From: Planctomycetota bacterium
GTDB lineage: Bacteria; Planctomycetota; Phycisphaerae; UBA1845
NCBI GenBank assembly: GCA_030616775.1
Contig: JAUWWQ010000003.1
Coordinates: forward strand, 74,794-138,793
Length of the DNA: 64,000 nt
Reading direction: 5' to 3'
The translations under genes were made by a program, and so were the position numbers. Position 1 is the first letter of the stretch, and each line of letters begins with the position of its first letter. The notes under the pieces are model-generated. The model had not been told where the DNA came from and ran no database searches. It was given only the letters and a program-made list of their open reading frames with translations. This document shows, in pieces, positions 46,432 through 50,599 of this stretch.

Positions 46432-46713
46432 ATGCACGTACCCGGCGAGCGGCCGTCCCAGGGCATCTCTCAAGCCACCTTCGGGCGCTTGGTCGAAGCC
46501 GCCCGCCACAAAGTAGCAAACGCTCTGGTCAACGGCAAGATGCTCGTAATCAAGGGAGGTGTAATAGCTATGTCGGACGGAAGGACATTTGTATGCAGGG
46601 ATTGTAGCCATCGATTTAAGGTTCCGTACGGCACGGGCCGACCGGCCCGGTGCCCTTCGTGCTCCAGTACGAACTTCGGCCGTGCTGCCGAGAAGCACAG
46701 CCAGCGAGGTTGA
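46432..46713 (+). CDS. Small zinc-ribbon protein
   Basis: The C-terminal half has FVCRDCSHRFKVPYGTGRPA followed by RCPSCSSTNFG, a C-x2-C pair repeated after about 14 residues, as in short rubredoxin-like or zinc-ribbon proteins. The segment KVANALVNGKMLVIKGG before it resembles small proteins linked to metal-cofactor (NifX-like) chemistry, but this is weak. ATG 46432 gives 93 residues. An ATG at 46570 has a perfect GGAGGT nine bases upstream and would give 47 residues with only the ribbon. Because that GGAGGT also encodes the conserved-looking Gly-Gly, the long form is kept. It is divergent from the gamma-lyase gene. Confidence 0.55.
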   Translation: MHVPGERPSQGISQATFGRLVEAARHKVANALVNGKMLVIKGGVIAMSDGRTFVCRDCSHRFKVPYGTGRPARCPSCSSTNFGRAAEKHSQRG

Positions 46714-46748
46714 TGGCACAGCCGGGGGCAGGGTCGCCGGGTCCGCTC

Positions 46749-47045
46749 ATGGCGGTGGATACCACCAATGTGCTGGTAGTCGGTGCGGTGGCTGCGCCGG
46801 GACTTGTGCCGCTTCGGCGGACGGAGCGCAACATGCTATTCGCCATCGTTGGCGCCGGGGGTATATCCGAGATCGCTTCGGGACAGGCTACACTTCACCG
46901 CATCCGAACTCCGACCGACGAAGTGACCTTGAATCTGACGGATCCGATTCAACTGCGGGATGCCCTTGCGCTTAAGCCGCTCAAGCAGGGGGACATCGTG
47001 TATGTGTATGCCGCCCAGCCTAACACGGTCTTCGGCGGCGGGTGA
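46749..47045 (+). pseudogene. C-terminal fragment of a Wza-type polysaccharide export protein
   Basis: The translation contains VLVVGAVAAPGLVPLRRTER, AIVGAGGISEIASGQATLHR and LKQGDIVYVYAAQPNTVFGG. This is the pattern of a SLBB domain and the end of outer-membrane polysaccharide export proteins. The N-terminal export domain and signal sequence are missing. It could be a remnant of a capsule or exopolysaccharide locus like the one at 53.3-57.1 kb. It is called a fragment, though a short self-standing SLBB protein cannot be excluded. Confidence 0.5.
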
Positions 47046-47076
47046 GGAGGATGGAACCGGCCAAAAGGAGCAGACC

Positions 47077-47192
47077 GTAGGGTGGGTCATCCGACCTACC
47101 TGTTTGCTCCGTGGTGGAGGGTATTATCCGTACCTCGACCCCGGCGGATACAAGGCGCACGCTATCCGGTGGGTTCACAGAATCCACCCTAC
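47077..47192. repeat. Fold-back repeat with GTAGGGTGG arms
   Basis: Perfect nine-base arms GTAGGGTGG (47077-47085) and CCACCCTAC (47184-47192) flank about 98 bases. The right side reads GGTGGGTTCACAGAATCCAC, a sequence type that recurs between genes in planctomycetes and some other phyla. It fills the gap after the export-protein fragment and ahead of the convergent PD-(D/E)XK gene. Confidence 0.6.
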
Positions 47193-47303
47193 CTTGCTTC
47201 GGCAGTTCCATGACCTGGACGCACGGGACTCGCGAAGGTTCGCGCCGGAACCAACCTTCTGGCTCACAGGCGAAAGCTGTACACCCTATCCTTTGATGAC
47301 GCC

Positions 47304-48770
47304 TCACGCCTTTGATGCTGACGGTTTGTTGTCGGACCGTGCATCTACAAGGACAACATAGCGGTCGTTTTCCATTTTCAGCTCACGGAGAATCCCATGG
47401 ACCCGAAGTAGTTCATGGTCTGAAAAAAATATGATGACCTTGAATCCGACCTTCGCATCGCTCGCTTTCTTGTAGATATCCTGTTGCCTCTTGAGGTTCC
47501 TTTTCAGCTGCGTGTTGGTGGCCAATTTGAACTCGACAAGAGTCTTGTCCGCCGCCCCACGCGAAATCTTGAAGTCAGCCGCTCCCCTCCCGTCATCTAC
47601 TTCACGACTGACGTCCGACGGTGTTCCGTGCCACACAAGCCGGAAGAGAATATGTACATCCCGCTCCCGCCGCACTGGTTCCCCCTGGGCGTCATAGAAG
47701 ATTCTGTGTCCTCCCTTGTTTTCGATTACATCTTTGAAGAACCCGATTTTTTGGCGCGTCTCTTCTTCCGTGTCTCCGGCAACTCTGTAGAACGCGGTTT
47801 CCTGTTGCAGGAGGCAAGCAAGACTCCCGAACTGCTTTACGTACAGCAAGTCGGATTGCCGTACTTTGGCTGAACTACTGGCGACAGCCTCATCACCTCT
47901 GTCCTCCTTGAGCTTGATGTAGTAGTCTATTAATTGCGGGTACTTCAAAACAGTAGATGCAACCGCGCGGTCGTACTCTTCCGTTGTCCACTCTCGATCG
48001 CGCGGAATCATCGAATAGAAGTAGTTGTTTATCTCTGCACGCAGCTGGTCGTTGTCAACGGCATTGGGGATGTCCTCAAAGCTGTTGAACATGTCATTGT
48101 GGTTGATCCACGTTTCGTCCTTGGTCAGAATATCCTTCGGTGTTAAAAGGACGAAGTCGTCCCCACAGAACGGAAGCACGTATGGTTTCGGCATCCACCT
48201 CTCGGTTTCATAGCTGAAGTACGCGCGCGGCGCAGAGACGGTACGAACGAGATCTTCCGAAAGATGCTCTGCCGCAAAGGTAGCGGTGTAGGCGAGCAAG
48301 TAGTCCTTAATCAGGTTCGTCGTGAAATCGCTGATCATGTCTCTCCCGACGCCTGACTTGATCAGACACAGCTTCTCCAGGTGGCTTCCTCGCGTAATCT
48401 GTTCCTGCCCGAAGTTCTGGAACACATGAACCAGGTTGGCATCGAGCGCCCGCGCAAAACCCACCCCGAGGCCCCGTCCCGTATTCCCAGATTCACAGAA
48501 GCCAAGCCAGTTCTGCTTGACCTCGCCAAAGCAGTACCACGCCTTCATAAGAGCAGTAGATATCTCCCTTTGCTCTGACTTCAATCTCAGAAAACGGAGA
48601 TAGCGGATGATGTCATCATGCAGGCCGTGGTATTCTGGCTTGTCGCTGTTGAAGAGGAGGAAAGGATCAATGAAGAGCGGAAGATCCGCAATTAGCGAGA
48701 CGTTGAAGGCTCCGTACTGATCAAGGACATCCTCCGGTATTCCGAAAAAGTCTGTGAAGTAGAGCTGCAT
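47304..48770 (-). CDS. Uncharacterised protein with C-terminal PD-(D/E)XK nuclease motif
   Basis: The first 330 residues are a conserved domain of unknown function beginning LYFTDFFGIPEDVLDQYGAF and including LPLFIDPFLLFNS, EVKQNWLGFCESGN, and GVGRDMISDFTTNLIKDYLL. The C-terminal part carries an apparent PD-(D/E)XK active site: Asp399, Glu413-Phe-Lys415, and Gln429-x3-Tyr433 in the following helix. A GAGGCGG ribosome binding site precedes ATG 48770. The coding DNA is visibly richer in A and T than its neighbours, which suggests transfer. The next gene upstream is DUF2513. A defence role is inferred from the nuclease motif and composition, not shown. Confidence 0.6.
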   Translation of the reverse strand: MQLYFTDFFGIPEDVLDQYGAFNVSLIADLPLFIDPFLLFNSDKPEYHGLHDDIIRYLRFLRLKSEQREISTALMKAWYCFGEVKQNWLGFCESGNTGRGLGVGFARALDANLVHVFQNFGQEQITRGSHLEKLCLIKSGVGRDMISDFTTNLIKDYLLAYTATFAAEHLSEDLVRTVSAPRAYFSYETERWMPKPYVLPFCGDDFVLLTPKDILTKDETWINHNDMFNSFEDIPNAVDNDQLRAEINNYFYSMIPRDREWTTEEYDRAVASTVLKYPQLIDYYIKLKEDRGDEAVASSSAKVRQSDLLYVKQFGSLACLLQQETAFYRVAGDTEEETRQKIGFFKDVIENKGGHRIFYDAQGEPVRRERDVHILFRLVWHGTPSDVSREVDDGRGAADFKISRGAADKTLVEFKLATNTQLKRNLKRQQDIYKKASDAKVGFKVIIFFSDHELLRVHGILRELKMENDRYVVLVDARSDNKPSASKA

Positions 48771-48859
48771 TTGACCGCCTCATCCAACAACCATTAAAGA
48801 CTGCACGTAAACCGGGCGATGCGCGGGGTCTTCTCGTGTGCGTTGCGTGCACGAGTTGG

Positions 48860-49225
48860 CTAGGCATCCACAGCCCGCAGCGCTAGTTTCGTCGCCAGAG
48901 CGCTAATGACACTGAACGCCAGGGTTCCGCCCTTGGACTGAATTACGTCACGAATCTGACGCCATACGCTGTCGCTCTTGATTTTCGCCAAGAACTCCTG
49001 GCCATCCCACGTTAGTTCGAAGGGGATGACGTAAATCACGCGATCGCTTGTCGATGACTTCACTGGCTCGCACCGGAGAAACCCCGCGTCGTGGAGCAGC
49101 ACCATGTGATACTTGATGCTGGTTTCGTCGTACCCCTCGATCGGCGGGATTTCTACGTGCTCTGGTGTCTCCTTCTCTTCGAAGAAGATGAGTAGCTTAC
49201 GGATTAGGTCGAAATCGCGTTTCAT
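48860..49225 (-). CDS. DUF2513 family protein
   Basis: Starting at ATG 49225 (MKRDFDLIRKLLIFFEE), the 121 residues fit DUF2513, a small winged-helix-like family (IKYHMVLLHDAGFL, FELTWDGQEFLAKIKSD, VWRQIRDVIQSKGGTLAF). The open frame continues upstream, but that part is not DUF2513-like. Family members are often found on mobile DNA; their function is unknown. It lies 89 bases upstream of the PD-(D/E)XK protein on the same strand, so the two may be an operon. A DNA-binding regulator of the downstream gene is one reading. Confidence 0.7.
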   Translation of the reverse strand: MKRDFDLIRKLLIFFEEKETPEHVEIPPIEGYDETSIKYHMVLLHDAGFLRCEPVKSSTSDRVIYVIPFELTWDGQEFLAKIKSDSVWRQIRDVIQSKGGTLAFSVISALATKLALRAVDA

Positions 49226-49602
49226 TAGCCCCGGATGCCTCACATTTACTGTACAGGCGCGTAGGCTGCGCCGTGTGCGCCACCACCGATTGCCCTCGAT
49301 CTGGTCCACGGAGCGGACCCTACAAGCTGAGACGATGGGTTGAGACCGCGAAAGGGACCGACCAAGTTGTCGCGGGCTTTTTGCACCGCCAAGACTCTTG
49401 CTGACGGACGAGCTTTTCGGCCGAGTTGGTCGAACTGTGGATACTATAGACCGAGGTCCCTCCGCCCGCAAGGACGGTATTCCCGGGCTGGTAGGGCCGG
49501 CGTGCGTGACAGTCCCCCGCCCCGCTGGGGCGGGCGGCTCAGGAGTGTCCCTGTCCCACGGGTTCCGCTACGGGCACCTCGGCCGCCATTCGGAGACGGA
49601 GG
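49226..49602. other. Intergenic region between metF and the DUF2513 gene
   Basis: About 380 bases. A perfect hairpin CCCGCCCC-GCT-GGGGCGGG is at 49516-49534, some 70 bases past the metF stop, but no T-run follows, so a terminator role is uncertain. The open frames here are short and unsupported. Confidence 0.5.
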
Positions 49603-50499
49603 TTACGAAGACAGATGTGCTTCAGCGGACGGGTACGCTTTGATGAACTGATAGATGGCCCGTGTCGCGGTGGACCGGTTCAAGGTATAGAAGTGGATTC
49701 CCGCCACCTCCTGCTCCAAAAGAGCCAGGCATTGCTGTGTCGAGTGATACATCCCGACATGGCGCACGGCTTCGTGGTCATCTTCCACGGCTTCGATCTT
49801 TCTCAGCAGATCCTGAGGGATTGTCGCCCCGCACATTTGTGTGAAGCGTTTGATTTGCTTCCCACTCAGAATCGGCATGATCCCGGCAAGAATCGGTATA
49901 TTGATCCCGGCGGCAGCGACCCGATCTCGAAAGGAGAAGAAATAGTCATTGTTGAAGAATAGCTGTGTGATCAGAAAATTGACGCCGGCATCAACCTTTC
50001 GTCTGAGGTTCTCGAGGTCTTGCTCCAGGTTCGGCGCTTCCGGATGCCCCTCTGGATAGCAGGCTCCGCCGATGCACAGGTCCACATGCCGCTCCCGGAT
50101 GAAGGCGGCCAACTCGCTGGCATATCGAAAGCCTCCTTCCGTGGGGACGAAGTTGGCCTGCCCTTCAGGTGGATCGCCTCGAAGCGCCAAGATGTTCGTG
50201 ATGCCGCGATTTTTCAGGTCGTCGACGATGCGAGCGATGGCGGCCCGCGTCGATCCCACGCACGTCAAATGAGCCATGCTTTCGATGCCGATGTCGCTCT
50301 TGATACGCGCCACCAAATCCAGCGTCCTCCGTCGCGTAGTCCCGCCGGACCCGTAGGTGACCGAGACATACGTAGGATCGAGCGGCTTGAGGGACTCAAT
50401 GGTGCGATAGAGATCCCAAAAACCGATGTCGTCCTTCGGCGGAAAGAACTCGAAAGAGAGGGCCGGTCTTTTGTCGTCGAGCAGCTCGCGGATACGCAT
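49603..50499 (-). CDS. metF: 5,10-methylenetetrahydrofolate reductase
   Basis: MetF reduces methylene-THF to methyl-THF using FAD, providing methyl groups for methionine. The N-terminal LSFEFFPPKDDIGFWDLYRTI carries the catalytic Glu and NADH-site residues. VSVTYGSGGTTRRRTLDLV, LRGDPPEG, and FLITQLFFNNDYFF follow in the expected order. ATG 50499 gives 298 residues, normal for the family, and begins 16 bases after the end of tRNA-Tyr on the same strand. It fits with gcvT and gcvH nearby, which also supply methylene-THF. Confidence 0.93.
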   Translation of the reverse strand: MRIRELLDDKRPALSFEFFPPKDDIGFWDLYRTIESLKPLDPTYVSVTYGSGGTTRRRTLDLVARIKSDIGIESMAHLTCVGSTRAAIARIVDDLKNRGITNILALRGDPPEGQANFVPTEGGFRYASELAAFIRERHVDLCIGGACYPEGHPEAPNLEQDLENLRRKVDAGVNFLITQLFFNNDYFFSFRDRVAAAGINIPILAGIMPILSGKQIKRFTQMCGATIPQDLLRKIEAVEDDHEAVRHVGMYHSTQQCLALLEQEVAGIHFYTLNRSTATRAIYQFIKAYPSAEAHLSS

Positions 50500-50515: not shown

Positions 50516-50599
50516 TGGGCGCGGAAGGATTCGAACCTTCGAAGGCTTACGCCAACGGGTTTACAGCCCGTCCCCTTTGGCCAACTCGGGCACACGCCC
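50516..50599 (-). tRNA. tRNA-Tyr(GTA)
   Basis: A complete 84-base tRNA on the minus strand. The acceptor strands are GGGCGTG and CGCGCCC with discriminator A. The anticodon arm is ACGGG-CTGTAAA-CCCGT with anticodon GTA. A long variable arm (class II) is followed by the T loop TTCGAAT. CCA is not encoded. It is immediately upstream of metF and may be co-transcribed with it. Confidence 0.93.

Follow-up and report, generated by a model that had tools for sequence, protein, structure and literature searches.

Shedu (SduA) is a single-gene defence system with a C-terminal PD-(D/E)XK nuclease. The 488-residue protein analysed here, encoded in a window of 64,000 nucleotides (the whole stretch of DNA under analysis), resembles Shedu in its C-terminal region, which aligns with the Shedu nuclease domain at a VIA-align Z of 4.9, within the range of chance arrangements (below 8), and SduA itself is matched by one of 33 relatives (2.9e-4). 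However, the window protein has no SduA/DUF4263 match at E <= 1, and no match was found for its N-terminal domain. Type II restriction endonucleases (OkrAI/BamHI and PspGI/Ecl18kI) and McrC resemble residues 301-481 in their PD-(D/E)XK fold, whereas a PDB sequence search with the 488-residue protein gave no meaningful match, and the window protein adds an N-terminal domain of 250 residues. A further comparison is offered by RosmerTA, whose toxins are described as diverse in PMC10440598. A homologue on the Roseomonas plasmid pTT14-2 (L007:6829-9461) lies 8 nt behind an RmrA-like gene (XRE plus IrrE-type peptidase), as if it were a RosmerTA toxin; yet no second RmrA-linked locus was seen, and the window has no RmrA, its neighbouring gene being DUF2513.

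In sequence, the window protein matches the PADLOC component PDC-M36A (E 3.2e-20 over residues 5-250), as do 33/33 relatives scanned, and it matches phrog_30194 over its whole length (E 1.9e-29, residues 3-487); it has no Pfam match. It differs from PDC-M36 in that the second component, PDC-M36B, is missing from all 18 members of the window's branch, its own genome included, whereas all four tested members of the other branch, serving as positive controls, possess it; that PADLOC demands both components is inferred from their A/B names. Two small paralogous genes downstream of the large gene match PDC-M36B in L103 and L107, and the same order of a large gene and two small ones is seen by eye in L046, L059 and L105. 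Given the lack of PDC-M36B, the gene of the window's branch would act, if at all, alone. Some E. coli relatives bear the RefSeq name DUF8370, among them a protein of strain AF3 that is 47% identical to the window protein; the name comes without a function, and no match named DUF8370 was found in the Pfam copy used. The earlier note had presented the pair as undescribed, which is right only in part: a PADLOC candidate and a RefSeq name exist, but no printed description was found, and DUF2513, PDC-M36, DUF8370 and the accessions of six relatives are all unnamed in the open-licence PMC papers searched. PDC systems are termed unpublished candidates in PMC11811056.

The gene for the 488-residue protein occupies positions 47304..48770 of the minus strand, and a DUF2513 gene (121 residues) lies in line with it at 48860..49225 on the same strand, with a gap of 89 nt. 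Both are poor in GC, at 51.8% for the large gene and 54.4% for the DUF2513 gene versus 59.7% for the window. The large gene has the lowest GC among the 31 window ORFs of at least 250 residues, and fewer than 0.1% of stretches of equal length reach a value that low. On one side, the pair adjoins a dispersed repeat (about 47065..47200, plus strand). The genome gave 12 matches to it in all, self and short ones included, of which five are good additional copies (83-90% over 92-140 bp). The arrangement, the low GC and the repeat had all been pointed out in the earlier note, and each was recovered here. Broken-looking ORFs (46432-47045), zinc-ribbon-like and polysaccharide-export-like by eye, separate the insert from the nearest housekeeping gene on that side. 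In addition, a tRNA-Tyr gene (50516-50599, minus strand) lies near the low-GC insert and might mark an old integration site; no clean direct repeats were found around the insert. In an empty-site comparison, metF was not found in any of nine relatives' stretches around the neighbour gene, which is cystathionine gamma-synthase-like by eye, and the comparison gave no insertion boundary. A scan of 46700-49700 gave no sigma-70-type promoter (1.1 in shuffles) and one weak terminator-like site (2.7 in shuffles), neither count being informative.

The C-terminal PD-(D/E)XK region of the protein (residues 301-481; 47328..47870, minus strand) aligns with restriction enzymes. Residues D399, E413, K415, Q429 and Y433 (the last two as Q429-x3-Y433), read beforehand as a nuclease-type active site, are indeed invariant in all eight rows of close relatives. 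In a diverse alignment of 33 rows, which includes L019 without a nuclease core (its E413 matches by chance) and L012 without D399, E413 is kept throughout (33/33), and each of D399, K415 and Q429 is shared by 90% of the rows or more. The window protein carries the D - (E/D)xK catalytic triad of PD-(D/E)XK nucleases. A crude D..ExK..Q pattern was matched by 45/48 proteins, the miss in L002 being a cut artefact; as several matching strings precede the true core, we relied on the alignments. Pfam assigned Mrr_cat to 3/33 relatives and PDDEXK_9 to 2/33. The homologue beside Septu PtuA (L012:7983-9425) lacks the stretch bearing the Asp of position 399, and is possibly a dead nuclease.

Structural comparison of the model of residues 301-481 by VIA-align gave a Wolbachia CidB chain, which we take to be a PD-(D/E)XK protein, as the top row (Z 7.1), along with OkrAI (6.8), BamHI (6.3), McrC (5.5), PspGI (5.5), Can2 (5.3), Ecl18kI (5.0) and the Shedu nuclease domain (4.9), all of these values being below 8, in the range of chance arrangements, and each of them weak singly. 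Most of the best rows are PD-(D/E)XK enzymes, with a Z of 5 to 7, which points to a PD-(D/E)XK core fold. A full-length model built on eight rows, with a pLDDT of 69.8 overall and a poor N-terminus, had no Foldseek match at E <= 0.001. Altogether, the motif and the modelled fold support well the reading of the protein as a nuclease, which would presumably cut DNA.

The N-terminal domain (residues 4-252; 48015..48761, minus strand) has conserved residues of its own: D29, P36, E83, G90, G98, D144, S147, D148 and P211 are invariant in 25/25 rows, and D35 is kept in 24/25. Modelled alone on these 25 rows, the domain reached a pLDDT of 82.5 and a pTM of 0.81, and is mostly helical with a long two-strand hairpin. 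Foldseek against the PDB gave a best E of 1.2, VIA-align placed 0/207 chains at Z >=2, and no viral predicted structure matched at E <= 0.001; such misses do not amount to proof of a new fold. The domain agrees with its earlier description as conserved and without recognised identity. The conserved D29, D35, E83, D144, S147 and D148 suggest a metal or nucleotide site.

A 453-residue protein from the window's phylum (L019:8699-10060) has the same N-terminal domain (E 1.9e-57) and a different C-terminus, which holds no nuclease core and no Pfam match; this non-nuclease C-terminus includes a stretch rich in glycine and asparagine and is hydrophobic at its end. From this one case, the domain appears able to couple to another effector. 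It is conceivable, though on balance rather doubtful, that the N-terminal domain is a new infection sensor or a second enzyme able to work with more than one kind of effector, and that it marks out a separate single-gene type of defence with optional helpers. The effectors would then usually be a PD-(D/E)XK nuclease and in L019 a quite different tail, and the helpers would be the M36B pair, RmrA and perhaps DUF2513. If so, P4 satellites, prophages, plasmids and lytic-phage-like contigs would all make use of this type.

Relatives of the large gene are widespread. Within the window's phylum they were found in 4/294 genomes (the window's own among them), within the phylum to which a Thermomonas genome belongs in 15/398, and among plasmids in 16/72,556 records. 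Four Bradyrhizobium plasmids were matched, and the two of these that were fetched carry only a C-terminal piece. Alignment queries detected the family in 8 and then in 24 viral contigs (overlapping sets), and a query with the single window sequence matched none of the viral contigs. In E. coli, two satellite-borne versions occur in 17 and 13 of 5,426 genomes.

Many of these relatives lie on mobile elements. The P4-like satellite of E. coli AF3 has the order tRNA-Leu, integrase, family gene, psu, ogr/Delta and sid, and in E. coli KMi029 an integrase, the family gene and psu lie next to ssrA. Similarly, the family gene in L054 is flanked by an integrase (PF00589) and Psu (PF07455, E 4.7e-88), and it stands right behind an integrase in L094 and L101, and by eye in L095. 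The locus of E. coli strain 4012 is not P4, and has the family gene beside mobilisation genes. In prophages, the gene lies between the GpA terminase and a lambda-type portal (L045, and L017, whose copy is 75% identical and comes from the window's phylum) or between an integrase and a terminase (L053). In T4-like viral contigs it sits among tail genes, adjoining the tail sheath gene in L057; the copy in another such contig (L058:4937-6194) is broken into two ORFs, that of L057, in a like setting, being intact.

Defence genes lie beside some relatives as well. They comprise type IIG restriction-modification (RM) in L002 and L011, a type III methyltransferase in L018, a type II methyltransferase in L107, type I RM in L056 (HsdM) and L049, TIR in L044 and L096, a SIR2-like gene in L110, Septu PtuA in L012 and Dsr1 in L015. 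In a matched control, 76 neighbours of 13 homologues gave 151 PADLOC families at E <= 1e-10, versus 5 from 78 control proteins; these are counts of HMM families and not of loci, and one methyltransferase can match dozens. The control covered 13/18 bacterial genomes, the short-contig G388, G669, G405, G375 and G263 being excluded, with one hand-picked control region per genome and ORFs of <110 or >=1500 residues dropped. A nameable defence neighbour is found at 4/13 matched loci (L002, L044, L049 and L046, the last with its own partner M36B only); three lie in prophages (L017, L045 and, by eye, L039), and 6/13 resemble plain chromosome by eye (L019, L038, L041, L043, L047 and L050). The enrichment in defence neighbours is real, and is carried by a minority of loci.

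The results computed here are the domain layout, the catalytic residues, the PD-(D/E)XK-like C-terminal fold, the mobile and defence-rich settings and the lack of a fixed partner. They support the assignment of the large protein as a two-domain PD-(D/E)XK member of a defence-associated mobile family. Going further, we propose, with a probability of about 0.6, that the large gene moves horizontally and works on its own against phages, as a form of competition between elements, through a nuclease whose N-terminal domain acts as sensor; the sensing and the protection are both deduced from layout and placement. In this mechanism, the N-terminal domain would sense infection, and would keep the C-terminal nuclease silent or aim it; the C-terminal domain, a predicted metal-dependent DNA endonuclease, would upon infection cut either the invader's DNA or all DNA of the cell, by which the phage would be stopped. 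A defence role is supported by the E. coli gene, which alone fills the P4 int-psu slot, described in PMC9122126 as a reservoir and hotspot of interchangeable antiviral systems, and by the defence-gene neighbours elsewhere. Against it, PADLOC PDC labels are predictions, and candidates of the same series, PDC-M63AB and PDC-S04, gave no defence upon testing according to PMC12409345; moreover, the window protein had no match in 50,697 deposited phage genomes.

The same settings can be read in other ways. The positions next to integrases and within structural modules of prophages and satellites, as well as among the tail genes of T4-like viral contigs, where the tail sheath is confirmed, would also suit a nuclease that works for the mobile element itself and not to protect the cell: it might help to take over the DNA of a host or helper, counter a defence or act in recombination. 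We regard this as unlikely, because the family also occurs on plasmids and in chromosomes where restriction, Septu, Dsr1 and TIR genes adjoin it and phage genes are lacking, and the P4 slot is one of exchangeable antiviral systems. Somewhat less likely still is a restriction enzyme on its own, specific for a sequence or a modification (type II, or similar to type IV), that has lost its methyltransferase or does not need one. The nearest folds of the C-terminal region do include OkrAI, BamHI, PspGI, Ecl18kI and the McrC subunit, and methyltransferases adjoin the gene in L002, L011, L018 and L107, and by eye in L008; but in the P4 slot it stands alone, with no methyltransferase, and its N-terminal domain, long and invariant, showed no match to a known DNA-recognition fold.

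The remaining alternative takes the large gene and DUF2513 together, as the earlier note had done: a two-gene defence module in which DUF2513 would regulate or neutralise the nuclease, or a toxin-antitoxin form of it. The DUF2513 assignment itself is firm (PF10711, E 4.2e-27, 94.9 bits against a curated cut-off of 29.6; phrog_585, E 2e-25), with no PADLOC match, and by eye the protein may be of winged-helix type. The two genes lie 89 nt apart on one strand, both low in GC, and the RmrA-linked homologue of L007 would allow for swapping of partners; moreover, DUF2513 can itself stand close behind other defence enzymes, as in Picosynechococcus (L136:704-4381), 3 nt behind a IIG enzyme, and in Pseudomonas BYT-1 (L140:2738-4363), where about 30 nt separate it from the type VI retron reverse transcriptase that precedes it. 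Against the module, DUF2513 was found in 0/35 other family-bearing genomes or records (1/11 in one set, that one being the window's own, and 0/25 in a second), some viral records being fragments and the search excluding viral contigs L094-L110, the E. coli genomes and G623. Conversely, none of the ten other DUF2513 loci of the phylum sample has the large-gene family; among its 294 genomes, DUF2513 occurs in 11 and the large gene in 4, and only the window's genome has both. The printed lists of plasmid records for the two families share no accession. A viral scan for DUF2513 found none. A conserved pairing is rejected on this missing co-occurrence in both directions, and a module of the two genes is very improbable. 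The check suggested earlier, whether relatives sit mainly in conserved housekeeping settings without DUF2513, accordingly splits: the absence of DUF2513 strikes the module, but the settings are not mainly conserved housekeeping ones, and the interpretation of the large gene as a defence gene is left untouched.

DUF2513 has settings of its own. In phages it lies between the tail chaperone and the tape measure region, elsewhere with the tape measure two genes on, and at another locus it is near an integrase and a repressor. It looks like a separate small phage or plasmid accessory protein, and a chance companion of the large gene in a shared low-GC insert.

With DUF2513 removed from the list of suspected partners, an anonymous pair is reduced to one testable gene of a predicted family for which no printed description was found. 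The E. coli relative, alone in a known antiviral hotspot, could be assayed at once in laboratory strains, and the N-terminal domain, confidently modelled and without structural match, could represent a new way of sensing phage.

Several relatives lie in longer runs of genes. On the Paenarthrobacter plasmid pA (L011:1197-8572), a IIG-type methyltransferase, a DEAD helicase, a GIY-YIG nuclease and a PDC-M36A homologue follow one another with overlapping ends, a run that looks like a composite defence operon. A 94-residue gene (L039:8811-9095), Cas2/SinR-like by eye and with no Pfam match, lies about 33 nt upstream of another homologue. In L107 (1307-8105), a PDC-M36A-B-B cassette continues a run of two cytosine methyltransferase-like genes and one NERD-like gene.
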